From contig JAHECK010000018.1 in NCBI GenBank assembly GCA_024641785.1, positions 1 through 36,357 on the forward strand: DNA of 36,357 nucleotides. The letters run 5' to 3'. This DNA comes from Flavobacteriales bacterium (GTDB lineage Bacteria; Bacteroidota; Bacteroidia; Flavobacteriales_D; JAHECK01). The notes beneath the pieces were generated by a model, which did no database searches, was not told the DNA's origin, and saw only the letters and a program-made list of their open reading frames with translations. The position numbers and the translations under genes are program-made. Shown one piece after another: positions 4,797 through 14,830 of the stretch (position 1 is its first letter; each line of letters opens with the position of its first letter).

Positions 4797-7043
4797 CTAA
4801 TTAAAGATCCTTTTAAAAAGCGATTTCTTTTTTTTCTTTTTCTTCTTCTTTTGTGTAGACTTGGTCTTTTCTTTTTCTATTTTTTGCTCATCTATTTTAT
4901 TTTGAAATCGGAAACTTTCAAATAGACTTTCAAATAGACCATCTTCTTTAAAATCAGGACAATCTAATTCTTCAGCCCAATAATAGGGTAGAGGATCAAA
5001 TGCTTTATTTATCTTTTTCCGCAATTTTTTATCTTTCTGTGCCTCCACTAAAGTAAGGGCTACAAGAGGTAATGCTAGTTTGCTTCCTGAACCATAGCTT
5101 CCATTATTAAAGTGAATACTAGGAGAAGAAGCACCTACTCTTGTAGCGATAACGATCGATGGATTATAAGCGACAAACCAAGCATCTGAATAATTTTGAG
5201 AAGTACCCGTTTTTCCAGCTAATGGAAGCGTGATTCCATATCGCGATCGAATAGATACACCGGTTCCTTCATCAATAGCTTTTTGCAAGATCTCATTTAT
5301 AATGCCGGCGGTCCGATCTTCAATAATATTTATTTTTTTTGTTGGTTTGGCACTATAGATCTCCTCACCATTTGCTTGTTCTATGGAAAGGATGATCTGT
5401 GGAATGACCCTTTCACCACCATTAGCAAATGCACTATAAGCAATTGCCATTTCATACAAGCTTCCTTCCCCTGTCCCAAGGGCAGTAGAAGGAGAATCAT
5501 GTAATTCCGTTTCAAAGCCCATTTTTCCCCACAGATAATCAACCGCTTCATAACCAGTTTTAAGGTAAAGATTTACGGTAGGTACATTTAATGATCTGCT
5601 TAAGGCACCGGCCATCGAATAATTTCCCCCATAAGTATGATCATAATTTTCAGGACTCCAGTCATCATATCCTTCTATTACAATACTGTCGTTATCGAGG
5701 TAGTCACATGGGCTTATTCCTTCTTCCAGCGCTGCTGCATAAAGGAAGGGTTTAAAGGAAGATGCTAATTGTCTTTTTGCAAGTATTTGATCATAAGGCT
5801 GGGTCCGAAAATCAATTCCACCTATCCAGGCAAGAATATTTCCGTCTCCTGGATTAATTGCGATCAATCCGGCTTGTAATGATCTTAAGGAATGTTCAAT
5901 ACTATCTAGGGCAGTGATCGAATCGGTATAAAAGCCATCCCATGAAAATAATTCTCTTTTTTCAGCATCATTATTAAGGTGATTATCTTTTAACAGTTTT
6001 TCGGCCATTTTATGGATCTGCTTTTTACTTTCACCTCTTTGGTATTGTTTGTCGATCTGTTTTTGCATAAGCGATAAGTGCTTATTAAAAGCATTCAAAG
6101 CATCATTCTGCAATTGCGCATTAATGGTGGTCTTAATGATCAGGCCATCCCTTTCGAGCTGAAGATCCGTTCCGTTTTTCTTATTGTATTCTTCAATGAT
6201 CTCATTAGCTCTTCTTTTAACGAGAACTAAAAAATAATTAGCGGGTCCTTCCGATTCTAAATTTGCATAATCGAGTTTTAAAGCAAGAAGTTGCAGTGAA
6301 TCTTTTATCGCAGTGTTTATATAATCATATTTTTCCATTTGATCGAGCACTATATTTCGTCTTGCTAATGCATGTTCCGGGTATAATCGGGGATTATAAA
6401 AGGTATTAGCTTTTAATATTCCGACAAGAATTGCGGCTTCTTCAATCTTTAAATCCTCAACACTTTTATTAAAGAAGCGACCGGAAGCCGCTTCAATACC
6501 ATATACATTTTCTCCGAAGGGAACAGTATTTAAATAGAGTCGAAGGATTTCTTCTTTATTAAAAATATTCTCAATTCGATAGGCAAGTATGGCTTCTTTC
6601 GTCTTATTTATTGGAATAGAAAGAAAGCCATAGCTTTTTCTGCCGTACATGTTTTTGGCGAGTTGCTGTGTGATAGTGCTTCCTCCACCCGAACTTTTAT
6701 TGTTGAGTAAAATACTTTTGAGCAAAACCCGAAACAAACTTCTGGAATCGATTCCTTCATGTTCGAAATAGCGGGCATCTTCGGTAGCGACTAAAGCATC
6801 GATAAGATATGATGGAATTTGCTCAAAATCGATATTTGTTCTGTCTTCTGTAAAAAATTTGCCTAAGAGTTGTTCGTCACTTGAAAAAACGAGCGATGCC
6901 GTTTCGTTTTCGAAAGCTTTGATTTCTTCTTTAGTGTATAAATGGCCAAAAATGCCAAAATTAACAGCAACGATAAATAAGCTTATGCTGATGGCAAGGA
7001 AAAGTAAAATAAGTACAAGGAATTTTAAAAGCCTTTTAAGCAT
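4797..7043 (-). CDS. Class A penicillin-binding protein (PBP1A type)
   Basis: Bifunctional peptidoglycan synthase, anchored in the inner membrane and acting in the periplasm: a glycosyltransferase (GT51) polymerises lipid II and a transpeptidase cross-links the chains. One N-terminal membrane helix lies at residues ~5-28. GT51 motifs are ATEDARYFEHEGID with the catalytic Glu at 88, and GGSTITQQLAKN at ~120-131. The transpeptidase motifs are all present: SSFK (428-431, nucleophile Ser428), SLN (484-486) and KTGT (611-614). At 748 aa the length is normal. The C-terminus is odd: a run of about ten lysines precedes SLFKRIFN, coded by an A-rich tract that includes eight A in a row. The gene follows the barrel-protein gene by 70 bp and could be co-transcribed with it. 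The family is certain; the specific paralogue is not. Confidence 0.95.
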   Translation of the reverse strand: MLKRLLKFLVLILLFLAISISLFIVAVNFGIFGHLYTKEEIKAFENETASLVFSSDEQLLGKFFTEDRTNIDFEQIPSYLIDALVATEDARYFEHEGIDSRSLFRVLLKSILLNNKSSGGGSTITQQLAKNMYGRKSYGFLSIPINKTKEAILAYRIENIFNKEEILRLYLNTVPFGENVYGIEAASGRFFNKSVEDLKIEEAAILVGILKANTFYNPRLYPEHALARRNIVLDQMEKYDYINTAIKDSLQLLALKLDYANLESEGPANYFLVLVKRRANEIIEEYNKKNGTDLQLERDGLIIKTTINAQLQNDALNAFNKHLSLMQKQIDKQYQRGESKKQIHKMAEKLLKDNHLNNDAEKRELFSWDGFYTDSITALDSIEHSLRSLQAGLIAINPGDGNILAWIGGIDFRTQPYDQILAKRQLASSFKPFLYAAALEEGISPCDYLDNDSIVIEGYDDWSPENYDHTYGGNYSMAGALSRSLNVPTVNLYLKTGYEAVDYLWGKMGFETELHDSPSTALGTGEGSLYEMAIAYSAFANGGERVIPQIILSIEQANGEEIYSAKPTKKINIIEDRTAGIINEILQKAIDEGTGVSIRSRYGITLPLAGKTGTSQNYSDAWFVAYNPSIVIATRVGASSPSIHFNNGSYGSGSKLALPLVALTLVEAQKDKKLRKKINKAFDPLPYYWAEELDCPDFKEDGLFESLFESFRFQNKIDEQKIEKEKTKSTQKKKKKKKKKSLFKRIFN

Positions 7044-8264: not shown

Positions 8265-8278
8265 GTGATATAAATCAT
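8265..8278 (+). promoter_or_regulatory. FNR/CRP-family box upstream of the nos cluster
   Basis: The sequence GTGAT-ATAA-ATCAT matches 8 of 10 defined bases of the FNR consensus TTGAT-N4-ATCAA and is a symmetric palindrome in its core (TGAT-N4-ATCA). Its centre is at 8271.5, about 85 bp before the cytochrome start. N2O reductase genes are commonly activated by FNR-type regulators under low oxygen or NO. The site is short and the region is AT-rich, so chance occurrence is possible. Confidence 0.45.
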
Positions 8279-8301
8279 AATTTAAATCGGATAATATGGT
8301 G

Positions 8302-8309
8302 TAATTTAC
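8302..8309 (+). promoter_or_regulatory. Possible -7 element of the nos promoter
   Basis: TAATTTAC resembles the Bacteroidota -7 element TAnnTTTG with two mismatches at its 3' end. If used, transcription would start near 8313. That puts the FNR-like box centre at about -41.5, the standard class II activator position. The spacing, rather than the box itself, is the main support. A weak box is expected for an activator-dependent promoter. Confidence 0.3.
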
Positions 8310-8356
8310 AGGATATAATAAACAACTTATTAATTGAATAATAGAATAGTATAGTC

Positions 8357-8827
8357 ATGAAAAAATCTTTGTTAGCAATCTTTATTTTAAGTATTGGTTT
8401 AGTTGCATGTGGTGGGGGAGATAGTTCTTCAACTACCGACCCGGCCACATCGACTGAAAAACCACAATCAATGATCAAAAAGGCGGTAGATCCAATGTTA
8501 GATAAAGGAGTTGGGCCTATTACCTCTCTTACTTTAGATCCCGTAATAAACCAAGAAATGGCGGCTAGAGGAGCAGAAATCTATCAAAAAATGTGTACTG
8601 CTTGTCATAAGCCTACCGAAAGATTTATTGGACCTGCACCAAAAGGGGTATTAACAAGAAGAAGTCCTGAATGGGTAATGAATATGATTCTTAATCCTGA
8701 TGGAATGGTTAAAGAAAACGATCAGGCTAAAAAACTTTTAATGGAATTTAATGGTTCACCGATGGCGAATCAAAACTTAACTGAAACAGAAGCGCGCGAT
8801 GTGCTTGAATATTTCAGAACGCTATAA
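8357..8827 (+). CDS. Lipoprotein mono-haem cytochrome c of the nos cluster
   Basis: A 156-aa c-type cytochrome that is the likely electron donor to the adjacent NosZ. The N-terminus MKKSLLAIFILSIGLVACGG is a lipoprotein signal with Cys18 as the lipidation site, so the protein should be membrane-anchored and face the periplasm. A Ser/Thr/Pro linker follows. The haem motif CTACH sits at 80-84, and Met136 in FNGSPMANQNLT is a good axial ligand. The helix ending ARDVLEYFRTL is the usual C-terminal cytochrome helix. It is first in the cluster, 22 bp before nosZ. Clade II nos clusters typically include c-type cytochromes instead of NosR; direct electron donation is inferred from this context. Confidence 0.9.
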   Translation: MKKSLLAIFILSIGLVACGGGDSSSTTDPATSTEKPQSMIKKAVDPMLDKGVGPITSLTLDPVINQEMAARGAEIYQKMCTACHKPTERFIGPAPKGVLTRRSPEWVMNMILNPDGMVKENDQAKKLLMEFNGSPMANQNLTETEARDVLEYFRTL

Positions 8828-8849: not shown

Positions 8850-10820
8850 ATGAAAAAACTCAATTTAATTCTTTTGTTTGCCCTTGGAGTTATTCTAATG
8901 GTAAGTTGCAGTGACCCAAAAGGGGGTGCTGATAGTTTTAAGAAGCCTGGTGGTGCTTTAAGTTCAAATGCCGCTGAGCGTGTGTATGTTGCTCCAGGAG
9001 AGCATGATGAATTCTACTGTTTTATGTCAGGTGGATTCAGTGGTCAACTTTCTGTTTATGGATTGCCTTCCGGTCGATTATTAAAAGTAATTCCTGTTTT
9101 TTCTGTAGATGCAGAGAAAGCTTATGGATTTAATGAAGAAACCAAGCCAATGTTAGAAACTTCTTTTGGTTTTGTTCCATGGGATGATTCACATCATCCT
9201 GAATTATCACAAACTGATGGTACAACAGATGGGCGTTGGGTATTTATTAATGGAAATAATACCCCTCGTATTGCACGTATCAATCTTAATACCTTCGAAA
9301 CAGGTGAGATCATTGAGATCCCTAATTCAGGTGGAAATCACTCTTCTCCATTTACTACTGAGAATACTGAGTATGTTGTTGCGGGAACTCGATTTGCGGT
9401 TCCATATCCACAAAAAGATATGGCAATTAATGAATATGAAGGAAACTTTAAAGGAGCGCTTACTTATGTTAGTGTAAATCCTGAAGATGGAGATATGGAA
9501 ATTGCATTCCAGATTTTAATGCCCGGTTTCGATTATGATCTAGCCCATTCAGGAAAAGGAAAATCTCATGGTTGGACTTTCTTCACTACTTACAATACCG
9601 AAGAATCTCATTCTCTTTTAGAAATTGGAGCATCACAAAACGATAAAGATTTTATTGCTGCCGTGAATTGGAAAAAAGCTGAAGAATATATGGCTGCAGG
9701 AAAATTTAAAGAAATGCCGGCCAATTACGTGGACAATGAATATAGCGATGAAACCCATACTGCAACGACTAAGAGAAATAAAACGGTTAAAGTTTTAATT
9801 CCTGAAGAGTGCCCAGGTTTAGTCTATTTTATTCCAACACCTAAATCTCCTCATGGAGTAGATGTTGATCCAACAGGAGAGTACATTGTAGGTAATGGAA
9901 AATTATCGGCAGATATGTCTATTCATTCATTTACTAAAATGATGAATGCTATCGATAATAAATTATATGATGGAGATGCTTACGGTATTCCAATTTTAAA
10001 ATACGACGAAGTTTTAGCCGGTATCGTAAAAGATCCTGGTTTAGGGCCACTCCATACCGAGTTTGATGCTTTTGGAAACGCCTATACTACCTTCTTTATC
10101 TCTTCTGAAGTAGTAAAATGGAAAGTAGGAACATGGGAAATCTTAGATCGCGTACCTACTTATTATTCAGTTGGACACCTCGTTATACCTGGTGGAGACT
10201 CTAAAAATCCTGATGGAAAATACTTAGTTGCAATGAATAAAATAACAAAAGACCGTTATTTACCTACAGGACCTGAAATGGTTCAAAGTGCACAGCTTTA
10301 TGATATTTCCGGCGATAAGATGGAACTTTTGCTTGATTTCCCAACGATTGGTGAACCTCACTATGCACAGGCCATTCCTGCAAGCAGAGTAGTTTCTAAT
10401 AGTGTTAAGTTCTTCAAGTTAGCGGATAATAATCATCCATATAAAGTAACGAATGAGAGTGAAACCCGAATGGAAAGAGAAGGAAATACAGTTCATATTT
10501 ATATGACAACGATACGATCTCATTTTGCTCCTGATAATTTACAGGGAGTTAAAGTAGGCGACGTAGTTTATTTCCATATTACAAATCTTGAGCAAGATTG
10601 GGATGTACCTCATGGATTTGCAGTAATGGGTGCATTGAACTCTGAATTACTTATCATGCCTGGGCAAACCGAAACCTTAAGATGGGAACCAAAAACAGAA
10701 GGTGTTATCCCTATGTATTGTACTGATTTCTGTTCTGCCTTACACCAGGAAATGCAAGGTTATATACGCGTTTCAGCAAAGGGAAGTAATACAGAATTGA
10801 AATGGAGTTTGAATGAATAG
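8850..10820 (+). CDS. nosZ: Nitrous-oxide reductase, clade II (Sec-type)
   Basis: Reduces N2O to N2 in the periplasm, the last step of denitrification. I place the start at 8850 because MKKLNLILLFALGVILMVSC is a signal peptide; an upstream in-frame ATG at 8799 overlaps the cytochrome gene and would bury it. The product is 656 aa. The N-terminal propeller has all seven expected CuZ histidines: the pair in WDDSHHPELS (115-116) and those in GGNHSS, SPHGVDVDP, GPLHTEFDAFG, SVGHLVIP and GEPHYAQA. The C-terminal cupredoxin domain has the CuA motif C624-x3-C628-x3-H632-x2-M635. The signal is Sec-type with no twin arginine, the mark of clade II. The Cys at position 20 resembles a lipobox, so the enzyme may be lipid-anchored. 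Confidence 0.97.
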   Translation: MKKLNLILLFALGVILMVSCSDPKGGADSFKKPGGALSSNAAERVYVAPGEHDEFYCFMSGGFSGQLSVYGLPSGRLLKVIPVFSVDAEKAYGFNEETKPMLETSFGFVPWDDSHHPELSQTDGTTDGRWVFINGNNTPRIARINLNTFETGEIIEIPNSGGNHSSPFTTENTEYVVAGTRFAVPYPQKDMAINEYEGNFKGALTYVSVNPEDGDMEIAFQILMPGFDYDLAHSGKGKSHGWTFFTTYNTEESHSLLEIGASQNDKDFIAAVNWKKAEEYMAAGKFKEMPANYVDNEYSDETHTATTKRNKTVKVLIPEECPGLVYFIPTPKSPHGVDVDPTGEYIVGNGKLSADMSIHSFTKMMNAIDNKLYDGDAYGIPILKYDEVLAGIVKDPGLGPLHTEFDAFGNAYTTFFISSEVVKWKVGTWEILDRVPTYYSVGHLVIPGGDSKNPDGKYLVAMNKITKDRYLPTGPEMVQSAQLYDISGDKMELLLDFPTIGEPHYAQAIPASRVVSNSVKFFKLADNNHPYKVTNESETRMEREGNTVHIYMTTIRSHFAPDNLQGVKVGDVVYFHITNLEQDWDVPHGFAVMGALNSELLIMPGQTETLRWEPKTEGVIPMYCTDFCSALHQEMQGYIRVSAKGSNTELKWSLNE

Positions 10821-10847: not shown

Positions 10848-10884
10848 GGGTTACTCTCAGAAATGAGAGTAACCCTATTTTTTT
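10848..10884 (+). terminator. Strong intrinsic terminator after nosZ
   Basis: A perfect 12-bp stem (10848-10859 with 10864-10875; arms GGGTTACTCTCA and TGAGAGTAACCC) closed by a GAAA tetraloop is followed by TA and a seven-base T run (10878-10884). This is a textbook Rho-independent terminator. It lies between nosZ and the remaining nos genes, so it should make cytochrome-nosZ mRNA more abundant than the downstream part. Confidence 0.93.
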
Positions 10885-10899
10885 AAATAAAATCAGATC

Positions 10900-11472
10900 A
10901 TGAGTTCTAAGTCAAGAATAACAATGATAGCCGGAGCAATTCTTCTTTTCGGTGTCTTTTTGTTTCCTATTTGGAGAATTACACTTTTTGCTCCTCAGTA
11001 TCCTTCAGGACTGAGCATGGATATATGGGTAGATAAAATTACCGATGAAAACGCAATGAAGAATATTAATATTCTTAATCATTATGTTGGAATGAAAATG
11101 ATCGAGCCAGACTCAATCCCTGAGCTCACATACTTTCCAATTGTGATCTATATATTAATTGGTTTAGGTCTTTTAGCGGCAGTAATAGATCGAAAAAAGA
11201 TCTATTTAAGTTTTGTTGTTTTACTGATCCTTCTTGGAATAATGGGTGTATATGACTTCTACCTTTGGGAGTATGATTATGGCCACGATCTGTCTGAAAT
11301 GGCTCCGATAAAAGTTCCGGGACAGGCCTATCAACCCCCTCTTCTTGGAGGTAAATGGCTATTGAATTTTTATGCTACTTCTTATCCTCATTGGGGGTCG
11401 CTTTTCTTTGTTTTACCTATGTTATTTGGATCTCTGGCTTTTTTCATGAAAAAGTCAGCTGCTAAAAAATAA
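10900..11472 (+). CDS. Unknown membrane protein of the nos cluster
   Basis: A 190-aa integral membrane protein of unknown function. Membrane segments are visible near residues 8-28 (MIAGAILLFGVFLFPIW), 79-97 (FPIVIYILIGLGLLAAVID), 101-120 (IYLSFVVLLILLGIMGVY) and 165-185 (WGSLFFVLPMLFGSLAFF). Between the first two lies a soluble loop with NINILNHYVGMKMIEPDSIP, where a His-Tyr pair and two Met could bind metal or haem. A second loop contains PPLLGGKWLLNFYATSYPHWG. The gene starts 15 bp after the terminator behind nosZ and runs into nosL. Its place suggests a role in NosZ assembly, copper handling or electron supply. It could correspond to the clade II gene called nosB in other bacteria, which I cannot confirm from sequence alone. 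Confidence 0.75.
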   Translation: MSSKSRITMIAGAILLFGVFLFPIWRITLFAPQYPSGLSMDIWVDKITDENAMKNINILNHYVGMKMIEPDSIPELTYFPIVIYILIGLGLLAAVIDRKKIYLSFVVLLILLGIMGVYDFYLWEYDYGHDLSEMAPIKVPGQAYQPPLLGGKWLLNFYATSYPHWGSLFFVLPMLFGSLAFFMKKSAAKK

Positions 11473-11507
11473 TTTAAGAACTTTGGCCGCTTTAAACAAA
11501 ACGAGGA

Positions 11508-11948
11508 ATGAAGAATAGTGTATTTGTATTTTTTGTTGGCATTTTTCTAAGTGCATGCTCTGTTGAACCACAAGAAATTCTATTTGGACAAGATGCTTGC
11601 GATTTTTGTAAAATGACCATTGTTGATAGTCAACATGCAACAGAATTGGTTAGCCCAAAAGGGAAAGCATACAAATTCGATGCGATCGAATGCATGATGA
11701 ATTATCTAAATAGAAATGTAATTGAAAGTGAAAAAATGGCTTTTATTTTAGTCATGAATTATGATCAACCGGGTGAATTAATAGATGCAAAAGAGGCATT
11801 TTATATTTACTCTGAAAATATCGCTAGCCCGATGGGAGCTTTTTTAAGTGCAGTCGACAGTGAAAAAGTCGCTAATCAAATTGTTGAATTAAAAAGTGGA
11901 GAAGTTTTCGATTGGATGCTTTTAAAAGACCGTTATAAAGTAAAATAA
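11508..11948 (+). CDS. nosL: NosL copper-chaperone lipoprotein
   Basis: NosL binds Cu(I) in the periplasm and delivers it to apo-NosZ. The 146-aa product starts with a lipoprotein signal (FVGIFLSAC, Cys17). The motif CDFCKM at 31-36 supplies the conserved Cys-x2-Cys-x-Met. The segment GKAYKFDAIECMMNYLN is the conserved part where the family has F-D-[SA]-x-x-C-[ML]. Length is in the usual range for compact NosL proteins. It lies 35 bp after the unknown membrane protein and is followed at once by a terminator. A GAGG sits only one base before the ATG, too close to be a normal ribosome binding site. Confidence 0.93.
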   Translation: MKNSVFVFFVGIFLSACSVEPQEILFGQDACDFCKMTIVDSQHATELVSPKGKAYKFDAIECMMNYLNRNVIESEKMAFILVMNYDQPGELIDAKEAFYIYSENIASPMGAFLSAVDSEKVANQIVELKSGEVFDWMLLKDRYKVK

Positions 11949-11953
11949 TTGAT

Positions 11954-11989
11954 CATCCTCATTTGTTTTAATATTTGAGGATGTTTTTT
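11954..11989 (+). terminator. Intrinsic terminator between nosL and nosD
   Basis: CATCCTCA (11954-11961) pairs perfectly with TGAGGATG (11976-11983) across a 14-nt loop, and six T follow directly (11984-11989). The hairpin covers an alternative upstream ATG for nosD at 11975, which supports the nosD start at 12020. It is the second terminator inside the nos cluster; the stem is shorter and the loop larger than in the one after nosZ, so partial read-through is likely. Confidence 0.8.
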
Positions 11990-12019: not shown

Positions 12020-13246
12020 ATGAAGGGAATATCTTTCTTTTCTGTACTCCTATTATTACTCCCTTTTCAGCTATTTGGAAAAGTGTTTAAAGTAACGAAA
12101 CCTAGTGAACTTATCACTAATGCGATCGCCTTGGCATCTCCTCATGATACCATTATCGTTTCCGAAGGAATCTATAATCAGGGACCTATTATTATCGATA
12201 AACCGATCACAATGATAGGGGTAGATTACCCTGTTTTAGACGGTGAATTAAAAGGGGGAGTGTTGACAATAAAGGCAGATAGTGTTTGGTTTGAAGGATT
12301 TGTAATTAAAAATGTCTCAACAAGTTATATTGAAGACTTAGCCGGCATCCGAGTATCGAATTCTTCGGGTTTTACCATTATCAATAATAAATTGCACAAT
12401 ACTTTTTTTGGAGTTTTCCTGGAAGCATCTGACCATGGTTTAGTTGAGAATAATGAAGTTATCGGTGAAGCAGTAGATCAATATAATTCAGGAAACGGAA
12501 TTCATCTCTGGCAATGTAATAACATTTCTATCATCAATAATCATGTGAGCAAACATAGAGATGGTATCTATTTTGAATTTGTAGATAATAGTCGGATCAT
12601 AGGAAATAGAAGTGATCATAATCTTAGATACGGGCTGCATTTCATGTTTTCAAACCAGGATTTGTACGAGAAGAACATCTTTGAAAAGAATGGAGCTGGA
12701 GTAGCAGTGATGTTTTCGAAGTTCATCAATATGTATTATAATACTTTTAAAGATAATTGGGGACAATCATCCTACGGACTTTTACTTAAAGAGATTTATG
12801 ATGGAGAATTGATAGGAAATACATTTGATCGAAATACCATCGGGATCAATGCAGAAGGTTCCAACAGGCTTATCATTACAAATAATACATTTATCCAGAA
12901 TGGTTGGGCAGTTAAGATTTTAGGTGCTTGTTATAACAATACAATCTCAGAAAACAATTTCATGTATAATACTTTCGACGTCGCTTATTCCGGAGGACTA
13001 AATGAAAATATATTCGAAAAAAATTACTGGTCCGATTATACAGGATATGATCTGGACAGAGATGGGGTCGGAGACGTTCCCTATCGCCCGGTAAGATTAT
13101 TTACTTATGTGGTAAACCAGGTTCCGGAATCCATCATATTAATTCGTAGTTTATTCGTCTATCTTATCGATTTTTCGGAAAAAGTTTCTCCCATCTTCAC
13201 ACCCGATAATTTAGTAGATGCTCAACCAAAAATGCTGCCTTATTAG
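12020..13246 (+). CDS. nosD: NosD periplasmic copper-centre assembly protein
   Basis: NosD works with the NosFY ABC transporter to build the CuZ centre of NosZ. I choose ATG 12020, giving 408 aa, because MKGISFFSVLLLLLPFQLFG is a signal peptide; the in-frame ATG at 11975 lies inside the upstream terminator hairpin. The body is a right-handed beta-helix of the CASH/NosD type: repeated short turns with Asn ladders such as NNKLHNTFFGVFLEASDHG, NNHVSKHRDGIYFEFVDNS, GNRSDHNLRYGLHFMFSNQ and GNTFDRNTIGINAEGSNR. The family motif around NYWSDYTGYDLDRDGVGDVP is present, followed by PYRP. The stop codon is directly adjacent to the nosF start. Confidence 0.95.
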   Translation: MKGISFFSVLLLLLPFQLFGKVFKVTKPSELITNAIALASPHDTIIVSEGIYNQGPIIIDKPITMIGVDYPVLDGELKGGVLTIKADSVWFEGFVIKNVSTSYIEDLAGIRVSNSSGFTIINNKLHNTFFGVFLEASDHGLVENNEVIGEAVDQYNSGNGIHLWQCNNISIINNHVSKHRDGIYFEFVDNSRIIGNRSDHNLRYGLHFMFSNQDLYEKNIFEKNGAGVAVMFSKFINMYYNTFKDNWGQSSYGLLLKEIYDGELIGNTFDRNTIGINAEGSNRLIITNNTFIQNGWAVKILGACYNNTISENNFMYNTFDVAYSGGLNENIFEKNYWSDYTGYDLDRDGVGDVPYRPVRLFTYVVNQVPESIILIRSLFVYLIDFSEKVSPIFTPDNLVDAQPKMLPY

Positions 13247-13963
13247 ATGATTAAAATAGAGAGATTAAATAAAAAATTCGGAAAGTTAGAAGTCTTGAAA
13301 GACCTTAGCTTAGAGATCCGTAAAGGCAGTATCAATGCGATATTGGGTCCTAACGGATCGGGTAAAACGACTTTAATAAAGTGCCTGCTTGGAATGGTTA
13401 TTCCGGATAATGGGTCTATTAAAATAAATGATTTAGAAGTAAAAGATCAATGGAAATACCGCGATGAGATCGATTATATGCCTCAAATAGCAAATTTTCC
13501 TTCTAATCTTAAAGTGAAGGAGATCATTTCGATGTTGAAAGATATTCGAAACAGAGAAGCCAGAGATGCAGAATTGATCGAATATTTTGAACTGACTCCT
13601 TATTTGAATAAGCAACTGAGTTATTTGTCAGGGGGAACCAAACAAAAAGTAAATATCGTTTTAGCTTTTATGTTCGACAATCCATTATTGATACTGGATG
13701 AACCAACGAATGGACTTGATCCGGTAGCATTGATCAAATTAAAGGAATTGATCGCTAAGGAAATTAAACTTGGTAAAACCATTTTATTTACCACGCATAT
13801 TATCCGTTTAGTAGAAGAATTAGCAGAAGATATCGTCTTTTTATTAGAAGGGAAGATCTACTATCAAGGACCGGTTAGCGGGTTAATTGATAAACATAAA
13901 GAACTTGACCTTGAGCATACTATCGCTACTATTTTTAGTAAACATGTAAAAGAAGAAGCATGA
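13247..13963 (+). CDS. nosF: NosF ABC transporter ATP-binding protein
   Basis: ATPase of the NosFY transporter that energises maturation of the NosZ CuZ site. The 238-aa product has Walker A GPNGSGKTT (34-42), the Q-loop region YMPQIANFP (~78-86), the signature LSGGTKQK (127-134), Walker B LLILDEP (147-153) with the D-loop GLDP, and the switch His in FTTHIIRL. The start codon directly follows the nosD stop, and the last four bases overlap the nosY start (ATGA). This indicates translational coupling in a nosDFY unit. Confidence 0.95.
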   Translation: MIKIERLNKKFGKLEVLKDLSLEIRKGSINAILGPNGSGKTTLIKCLLGMVIPDNGSIKINDLEVKDQWKYRDEIDYMPQIANFPSNLKVKEIISMLKDIRNREARDAELIEYFELTPYLNKQLSYLSGGTKQKVNIVLAFMFDNPLLILDEPTNGLDPVALIKLKELIAKEIKLGKTILFTTHIIRLVEELAEDIVFLLEGKIYYQGPVSGLIDKHKELDLEHTIATIFSKHVKEEA

Positions 13964-14742
13964 TAAAAATACTTAAATACTCATTTTTTGATCTGATCCG
14001 AAGTCGCTGGAGTTTAATTTACTTTTCCTTCTACTTTTTACTCGCTTTTGTATTGCTTTTTCTAAATAATGATATTTCTAAAGCGATCATTACAATGATG
14101 AATGTGATCATTATTTTAGGTCCGCTGATCGGAATTGTTTTCGGAATAATGTATTATTATAATTCGTCAGAATTTACTGAATTGTTGCTGGCACAACCCA
14201 TAAAAAGAAGGTCGATCTTTCTAGGTCAATTTTTAGGACTAGCATTTTCGCTTTCATTGAGTTTAGTCTTAGGTCTGGGAATACCATTTGTTTTTTATGG
14301 CTTATTCAGATCAGAAGAGATCTTAAATTTTGCAGCCTTATTATGGATCGGCTTTATACTCACATTTATTTTTTCCGGGATCGCATTTTACATTGCTTTG
14401 GCAAATCAGAACAGAATTAAAGGATTTGGGATGGCCATTCTTTTTTGGCTTTTCATGGCGGTTATATATGATGGGGTCTTTTTATTACTACTTGTTTGGT
14501 TCCGAGAATATCCCCTTGATAATTTCGCTTTGATCTCAAGTGTATTAAATCCTATCGATCTAAGCCGGATCATGATCCTTTTAAAACTAGATATTTCTTC
14601 TTTAATGGGATATACGGGCGCGGTATTTAAGAACTTTTTTGCAAGCGGAAGCGGATTACTTGCTTCGTATTTAATATTATTAGCCTGGGCCTTTGTTCCT
14701 ATTTTAGCTATTGTTTTTAAGGCGAAAAGGAAGGATTTTTAA
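13960..14742 (+). CDS. nosY: NosY ABC transporter permease
   Basis: Membrane partner of NosF. The 260-aa protein shows about six membrane segments (near residues 17-37, 42-67, 87-112, 123-146, 155-180 and 236-256) and the ABC-2 type layout of NosY. An early cytoplasmic loop after the second segment contains SSEFTELLLAQPIKRRSIFLGQ, matching the conserved NosY loop before membrane segment 3. The gene overlaps nosF by four bases and ends the cluster; the next gene, ffh, has its own promoter. Confidence 0.93.
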   Translation: MIKILKYSFFDLIRSRWSLIYFSFYFLLAFVLLFLNNDISKAIITMMNVIIILGPLIGIVFGIMYYYNSSEFTELLLAQPIKRRSIFLGQFLGLAFSLSLSLVLGLGIPFVFYGLFRSEEILNFAALLWIGFILTFIFSGIAFYIALANQNRIKGFGMAILFWLFMAVIYDGVFLLLLVWFREYPLDNFALISSVLNPIDLSRIMILLKLDISSLMGYTGAVFKNFFASGSGLLASYLILLAWAFVPILAIVFKAKRKDF

Positions 14743-14801
14743 GTCGATTTCTTTTTCTTTAATGCAAAATGCGAGGTACTTCAATTTCTCGATGAAATAA
14801 T

Positions 14802-14809
14802 TAATTTTG
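14802..14809 (+). promoter_or_regulatory. Promoter -7 element of ffh
   Basis: TAATTTTG is a full match to the Bacteroidota -7 consensus TAnnTTTG, 21 bp before the ffh start in the 88-bp gap after nosY. I do not see a clear TTTG -33 element at normal spacing. Confidence 0.5.
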
Positions 14810-14830
14810 TTTTCTTAAAATTAGCTATAG

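Follow-up and report, generated by a model that had tools for sequence, protein, structure and literature searches.

Does a single nos cluster produce nitrous-oxide reductase and the proteins that mature it in different amounts, and at which junction would such a difference be set? The question is raised by a 36,357-nt contig of a Flavobacteriales bacterium (GenBank assembly GCA_024641785.1, contig JAHECK010000018.1), referred to here in its full length as the window. Two hairpins with trailing T-tracts lie between its nos genes. The original prediction read them as intrinsic terminators that split the cluster into three expression tiers, with the cytochrome and NosZ in excess, the following membrane protein and NosL at an intermediate level, and NosDFY at a low level.

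Results

Organization of the nos cluster

The window carries a clade II nos cluster on its forward strand, in the order cytochrome c gene, nosZ, nosB, nosL, nosD, nosF and nosY, followed by ffh (Table 1). NosZ scores above the cut-off of TIGR04246 and below that of TIGR04244, and NosB motifs are present, as in clade II clusters. The 190-residue protein encoded behind nosZ, predicted originally as an unknown membrane protein, can now be given a name. Searches of Pfam and NCBIfam with this protein returned no match. Judged by its motifs, it is NosB, because they are close to the stretches LNHYIGM and YGHN given for flavobacteria in PMC9697520, and because the gene sits at the usual place of nosB. 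The mechanically called reading frame of nosD starts at a TTG at position 11975, within the second hairpin; the ATG was used as the start instead. An Rfam search of the window at gathering score gave no match. The same-strand gap between nosY and ffh (14743-14830) contains no convincing terminator (best score -30), so nos transcripts may run on into ffh.

Table 1 Features of the nos cluster, in window coordinates
Feature	Position	Strand	Description
Crp/Fnr-type box TGATATAAATCA	8266-8277	+	upstream of cytochrome gene; presumed main promoter region
cytochrome c gene	8357-8827	+	first gene in cluster; PF00034
nosZ	8850-10820	+	Sec-type (clade II) nitrous-oxide reductase; TIGR04246, 928.6 bits (cut-off 625)
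hairpin 1	10848-10884	+	stem 10848-10875, T-tract 10878-10884; putative leaky terminator and 3' protector at nosZ-nosB
nosB	10900-11472	+	190-aa membrane protein; LNHYVGM and YGHD motifs
nosL	11508-11948	+	PF05573
hairpin 2	11954-11989	+	stem 11954-11983, T6 11984-11989; possible weak species-specific terminator
nosD	12020-13246	+	ATG start; TIGR04247, PF05048
nosF	13247-13963	+	ABC ATPase; PF00005 and position; name from cluster context
nosY	13960-14742	+	ABC-2 permease; PF12679 below cut-off and position; name from cluster context

Structure of the two hairpins

Both hairpins are present as predicted. Hairpin 1, between nosZ and nosB, has the structure of an intrinsic (Rho-independent) terminator, a G+C-containing stem-loop with a T-rich tract on the sense strand. 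Its stem is formed by 12 perfect pairs, six of which are G-C, and is closed by a GAAA loop. The letters directly after the stem are TATTTTTTT, with the T7 tract set off from the stem by TA. The folding energy is -19.9 kcal/mol for the stem alone and -21.1 kcal/mol with flanks (z -6.45), and none of 200 shuffles was equally stable. The d'Aubenton-type terminator score is 31.3. Hairpin 1 heads the list of eight terminator-like sites between positions 5000 and 20000. This total is not above chance (9.4 expected), so the evidence from the single site is modest and the comparative evidence decides. As a control, gaps of 40-300 nt were taken from 20 stretches of the same genome, about 0.2 of 3.3 Mb. 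Scores above zero were obtained for 9/32 same-strand and 6/15 convergent gaps, and the score of hairpin 1 falls within the range of these 15 positive sites.

Hairpin 2, between nosL and nosD, is likewise a stable stem-loop with a T-rich tract, here T6. Eight outer pairs enclose a 14-nt interior, which is predicted to add three pairs and a 4-nt loop. It has a folding energy of -11.9 kcal/mol, a z of -2.85 (1/200 shuffles equally stable) and a terminator score of 12.8, lower than all 15 positive sites of its own genome. It is missing from the list of terminator-like sites, the scan for which has a loop limit of 8, and a weak promoter-like site overlaps it.

The hairpins in the nearest relatives

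The nearest set consists of 94 loci chosen by similarity, namely the window (L001), 80 loci and a further 13. The order nosZ, nosB, nosL, nosD, nosF, nosY is retained in them as far as the contigs reach, with some longer gaps; L019 stops after nosZ. The junction of L082 is identical to that of L002, and is included in the count of 93 loci and left out of the counts of 92. In L003 the start of nosB was set too early by our rule (gap 2), and the locus was counted as a miss.

Terminator scores above zero are concentrated at the nosZ-nosB junction, where they occur in 68/93 loci (67/92 without L082) versus 2/279 shuffles. The corresponding counts are 10/81 (shuffles 0/243) at nosB-nosL, 2/82 (shuffles 0/246) at nosL-nosD, 4/77 between the cytochrome gene and nosZ, and 0/76 at both nosD-nosF and nosF-nosY. 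Hairpins of -14 kcal/mol or better, called strong below, follow nosZ in 86 of the 92 near loci. In flanking gaps of the same loci, delimited by open reading frames with starts at the nearest ATG, they were found in 25/118 same-strand, 11/26 convergent and 4/61 divergent cases. Behind nosZ, the sister species (87% NosZ identity) carries a longer hairpin, with T8, that is unrelated to hairpin 1.

The two nosL-nosD loci with terminator-like hairpins are the window and L045, and the sister species, a member of the same genus, has no hairpin there. Three tiers are therefore at best a trait of the window species. Hairpin 2 is local to it and uncertain, and the proposed intermediate level of NosB and NosL relative to NosDFY finds no support among the relatives. 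In five relatives (L068, L076, L038, L063, L066) the nosL-nosD gap measures between several hundred bases and roughly 1.7 kb, which is so long that genes seem to have been inserted.

Terminator-like hairpins at nosB-nosL belong mostly to a few related-looking loci (L055, L061, L065, L070, L075, L086-L089, L094) and are absent from the window; a further step was therefore gained at another junction in other lineages. A few junctions resemble degenerate short repeats (L009, L011, L027, L047).

Conservation of the nosZ-nosB hairpin across Bacteroidota

Since the nearest set was selected by similarity, we drew a phylum-wide set of 395 evenly sampled Bacteroidota genomes. Of these, 129 contain nosZ, and 127 loci were retained after leaving out the window and a fragment (G387). 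In all 127, nosZ is followed by a NosB match, as in one conserved cluster. A strong hairpin lies at the nosZ-nosB junction in 101/127 loci, compared with 58/381 shuffles, and in 55/240 same-strand, 19/58 convergent and 6/71 divergent ordinary gaps of nine genomes. Its occurrence depends on gap length: 101/112 gaps longer than 35 nt have one, and 0/15 shorter gaps do. Several of the 11 long-gap misses (L173, L182, L202, L205, L209) are longer or interrupted stems beyond the 46-nt limit of the hairpin search. The 101 strong hairpins form 71 sequence clusters, and no junction is identical between the nearest and the phylum set. The position of the hairpin is thus conserved in these sequences and its sequence is not. 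The hairpin is dispensable, as the 15 short-gap clusters manage without one. The comparison of related Bacteroidota at both junctions, suggested with the original prediction, bears out the nosZ-nosB hairpin near and far, and fails for nosL-nosD.

In 29/127 phylum loci (for example L172, L175, L176, L184 and L196), nosB and nosL share one reading frame. These apparent fusions reach far past the flavobacteria described in PMC9697520. A rule that fused nosB-nosL lacks the hairpin was rejected: fusions account for 7 of the 15 short-gap loci, but another 22 have a longer gap. Two nosZ genes are disrupted, one in two overlapping pieces (L267, G520:C144) and one by an in-frame TAG (L176, G481:C50); both are broken genes or assembly errors.

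Promoter motifs and space behind the hairpin

We looked for the Bacteroidota promoter element TAnnTTTG and for Crp/Fnr-type boxes built on the Crp/Fnr half-site. The sequence TTGA-N6-TCAA in PMC11539149 agrees with the half-site used. Upstream of the cytochrome gene, Crp/Fnr-type boxes were found at 43/75 loci (1.2 expected) and TAnnTTTG at 35/75 (11.1 expected). The boxes suggest that clade II nos clusters are under Crp/Fnr control across Bacteroidota. The box of the window lies within a block that is conserved with the sister species (8266-8310). At the inner junctions neither motif is enriched. The counts for box and TAnnTTTG, respectively, are 3/92 (1.2 expected) and 8/92 (9.8 expected) upstream of nosB, 2/90 (0.7) and 10/90 (12.1) upstream of nosL, and 0/81 (0.7) and 4/81 (8.7) upstream of nosD. 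The motif test is insensitive: roughly half of the presumed main promoters escape it, among them the window's own, which matches the -7 element poorly. The result therefore counts against internal promoters as a general feature, but single species may still have one. A sigma-70 style promoter scan was of no use (51 found, 54.1 expected).

The distance from the hairpin end to the nosB start has a median of 31 nt and is 40 nt or less in 75/101 phylum loci; the window has 15 nt between its T-tract and the start codon of nosB. For comparison, 5' UTRs of Bacteroides thetaiotaomicron have a median length of 32 nt (PMC7366714). A separate promoter before nosB would hardly fit in most clusters or in the window. 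Room for a promoter, at least 60 nt behind the hairpin, exists in 24/72 loci, and there TAnnTTTG occurs in 3/24 (2.4 expected) and the Crp/Fnr box in 0/24. Given the enrichment of promoter motifs ahead of the cluster alone and the usually short distance between hairpin and nosB, this gene and those downstream of it probably rely on readthrough.

T-tracts behind the nosZ-nosB hairpin

Terminator scores above zero are found more often on the sense than on the antisense strand, in 67/127 versus 17/127 phylum loci and in 67/92 versus 23/92 near loci. This preference of T-tracts for the sense strand favours termination. The score allows the end of the stem to vary. It replaced a simple T-count behind the lowest-energy hairpin (five or more T in 30/86), which was set aside because long stems take the T-tract into pairs. 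In the phylum set, 36 of the 101 strong hairpins fail to reach a score above zero. The share is about equal to that at ordinary gene ends of the control genomes, where 36/55 same-strand and 11/19 convergent strong hairpins, summed over genomes, score above zero. Strong hairpins without T-tracts are common at ordinary gene ends also in the lineages whose nosZ hairpins lack them, as far as the small counts per genome indicate.

nos clusters outside Bacteroidota

Outside the phylum we examined 18 of 144 plasmid records that match nosZ, a small and non-random sample. Thermomicrobium roseum, Gemmatirosa kalamazoonensis and Deinococcus ficus encode Sec-type or closely similar NosZ. Directly behind nosZ, and before a NosB-matching gene, each has a hairpin of -31 to -33 kcal/mol, and none of the three hairpins is followed by a T-tract. 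Clade I (TAT-type) clusters of Proteobacteria resemble the window in that maturation genes lie 3' of nosZ on the same strand. They differ in that the next nos gene is nosD in 13 annotated plasmid records; the gap measures only 1-3 nt in 8 of the 13, and a clean intergenic hairpin is present only in Azospirillum and Pseudoalteromonas. The clade I junctions of S. meliloti, Paracoccus and Chelatococcus are GC-rich and were left out of the interpretation; the S. meliloti record is unannotated, and its arbitrary 80-nt stretch probably enters nosD. In the archaeon Haloferax larsenii (L297), a NosB-profile match (E 4.9e-23) begins 3 nt behind a TAT-type nosZ, with no hairpin. NosB thus also occurs outside Sec-type clusters.

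Among clade II organisms of other phyla, Nitrosophilus labii shares with the window a nosZ accompanied by nosB and Crp/Fnr control, but there nosB has a separate, predicted start and a Crp/Fnr site ahead of it (PMC11539149). The hairpin and readthrough solution is hence not universal. The nosZ-hairpin-nosB arrangement, combined with readthrough adjusted by the cell, might be a general design of bacterial clade II operons (Bacteroidota, Gemmatimonadota, Deinococcota, Thermomicrobiota) that sets NosZ output apart from the capacity for maturation by NosB, NosL and NosDFY, a conjecture to which we attach little probability.

Discussion

We propose, with moderate confidence, that a leaky terminator that also protects the 3' end of the upstream mRNA follows nosZ and yields NosZ in excess, with one promoter upstream of the cluster and readthrough into the downstream genes. 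A single Crp/Fnr-type promoter ahead of the cytochrome gene would drive transcription from there through nosZ, nosB and nosL to nosDFY. The hairpin behind nosZ would halt a share of the transcripts made by RNA polymerase, and the same hairpin would shield the 3' end of nosZ mRNA. The remaining transcripts would continue into nosB and the assembly genes, so that cytochrome and NosZ would be plentiful and the maturation proteins few. Hairpin 2 may add a small drop ahead of nosDFY, in the window species only. The sequences themselves display the hairpin structure, its conserved position, the strand bias of the T-tracts, the lack of enriched internal promoter motifs and the lack of promoter space in most clusters. 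From these we infer that transcription terminates and how efficiently it does so, that the mRNA is protected, and in what ratio the proteins are made. Of the predicted tiers, the step after nosZ is thus retained, on a position-conserved hairpin and no sign of general internal promoters, and the step after nosL is not. The predicted excess of cytochrome and NosZ over the downstream products agrees with the phylum-wide conservation, and part of it may come from protection of the mRNA end, given the strong hairpins that do not score above zero.

About a third of the nosZ hairpins have no good T-tract, which makes stabilisation without termination a live rival. The hairpin would then terminate little and would block 3' exonucleases after the transcript is cut downstream, so that the nosZ segment outlives the rest; the outcome would be the same and the mechanism different. 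The T-less hairpins of Thermomicrobium, Gemmatirosa and Deinococcus and the segmental stability reported from the Rhodobacter puf operon (PMC6238624) are in keeping with such a barrier. However, a mere barrier has no need of the sense-strand bias of T-tracts, and T-less hairpins make up a similar share at ordinary gene ends of the control genomes. We consider this explanation unlikely.

Were the hairpin instead a full terminator, nosB, nosL and nosDFY would be transcribed as a separate unit from a promoter of their own, as the predicted start and Crp/Fnr site before nosB of N. labii (PMC11539149) and the one third of loci with enough space behind the hairpin could suggest. Neither the region upstream of nosB nor the sequence behind long-gap hairpins is enriched in promoter motifs, however, and the 15 nt available in the window leave little room, which renders a separate unit quite improbable. 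The hairpins could also be neutral and play no part in expression, for instance as short inverted repeats or remnants of a repeat insertion; the repeat-like junctions of four near loci and the absence of hairpin 2 from the sister species point in this direction. Against neutrality, a structure kept in 101 of the 112 clusters with sufficient space, while its sequence changes fast, is hard to explain without selection, and control gaps contain far fewer strong hairpins. We regard a neutral origin as very improbable, and retain partial termination combined with 3' protection as the preferred reading.

Devices of this kind are already known. In cellulolytic Clostridia, stem-loops with few U follow the binding-protein gene of ABC importer operons, where they cause partial termination and affect the abundance of the upstream transcript (PMC9045158). 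Like the nosZ hairpin, they follow a first, highly needed gene, often have few U behind a long stem, are accompanied by few promoters in the gap, and leave the upstream protein in excess (PMC9045158). They differ in operon and phylum, and partial termination was measured there with Northern blots and reporters (PMC9045158), whereas it is deduced for nosZ. By analogy, a double action of partial termination and an effect on the upstream transcript would be most likely at the nosZ hairpin too. An intercistronic hairpin also occurs in Rhodobacter capsulatus, in the puf operon, and is not known to have a T-tract bias. Like the hairpin behind nosZ, it lies between genes whose products are required in different quantities, but it works by giving segments of the mRNA different stability, with cleavage by RNase E (PMC6238624). 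Our search of the open-access literature found no report of a nosZ-nosB hairpin or terminator, nor of its positional recurrence in clade II nos operons.

Biological removal of nitrous oxide depends on NosZ, and carriers of clade II enzymes such as Bacteroidota are widespread. The nosZ-nosB hairpin offers a testable site at which the amount of NosZ would be set against its maturation, either of which may limit N2O reduction. Counts of nosZ transcripts may accordingly overstate the amount of mature enzyme.
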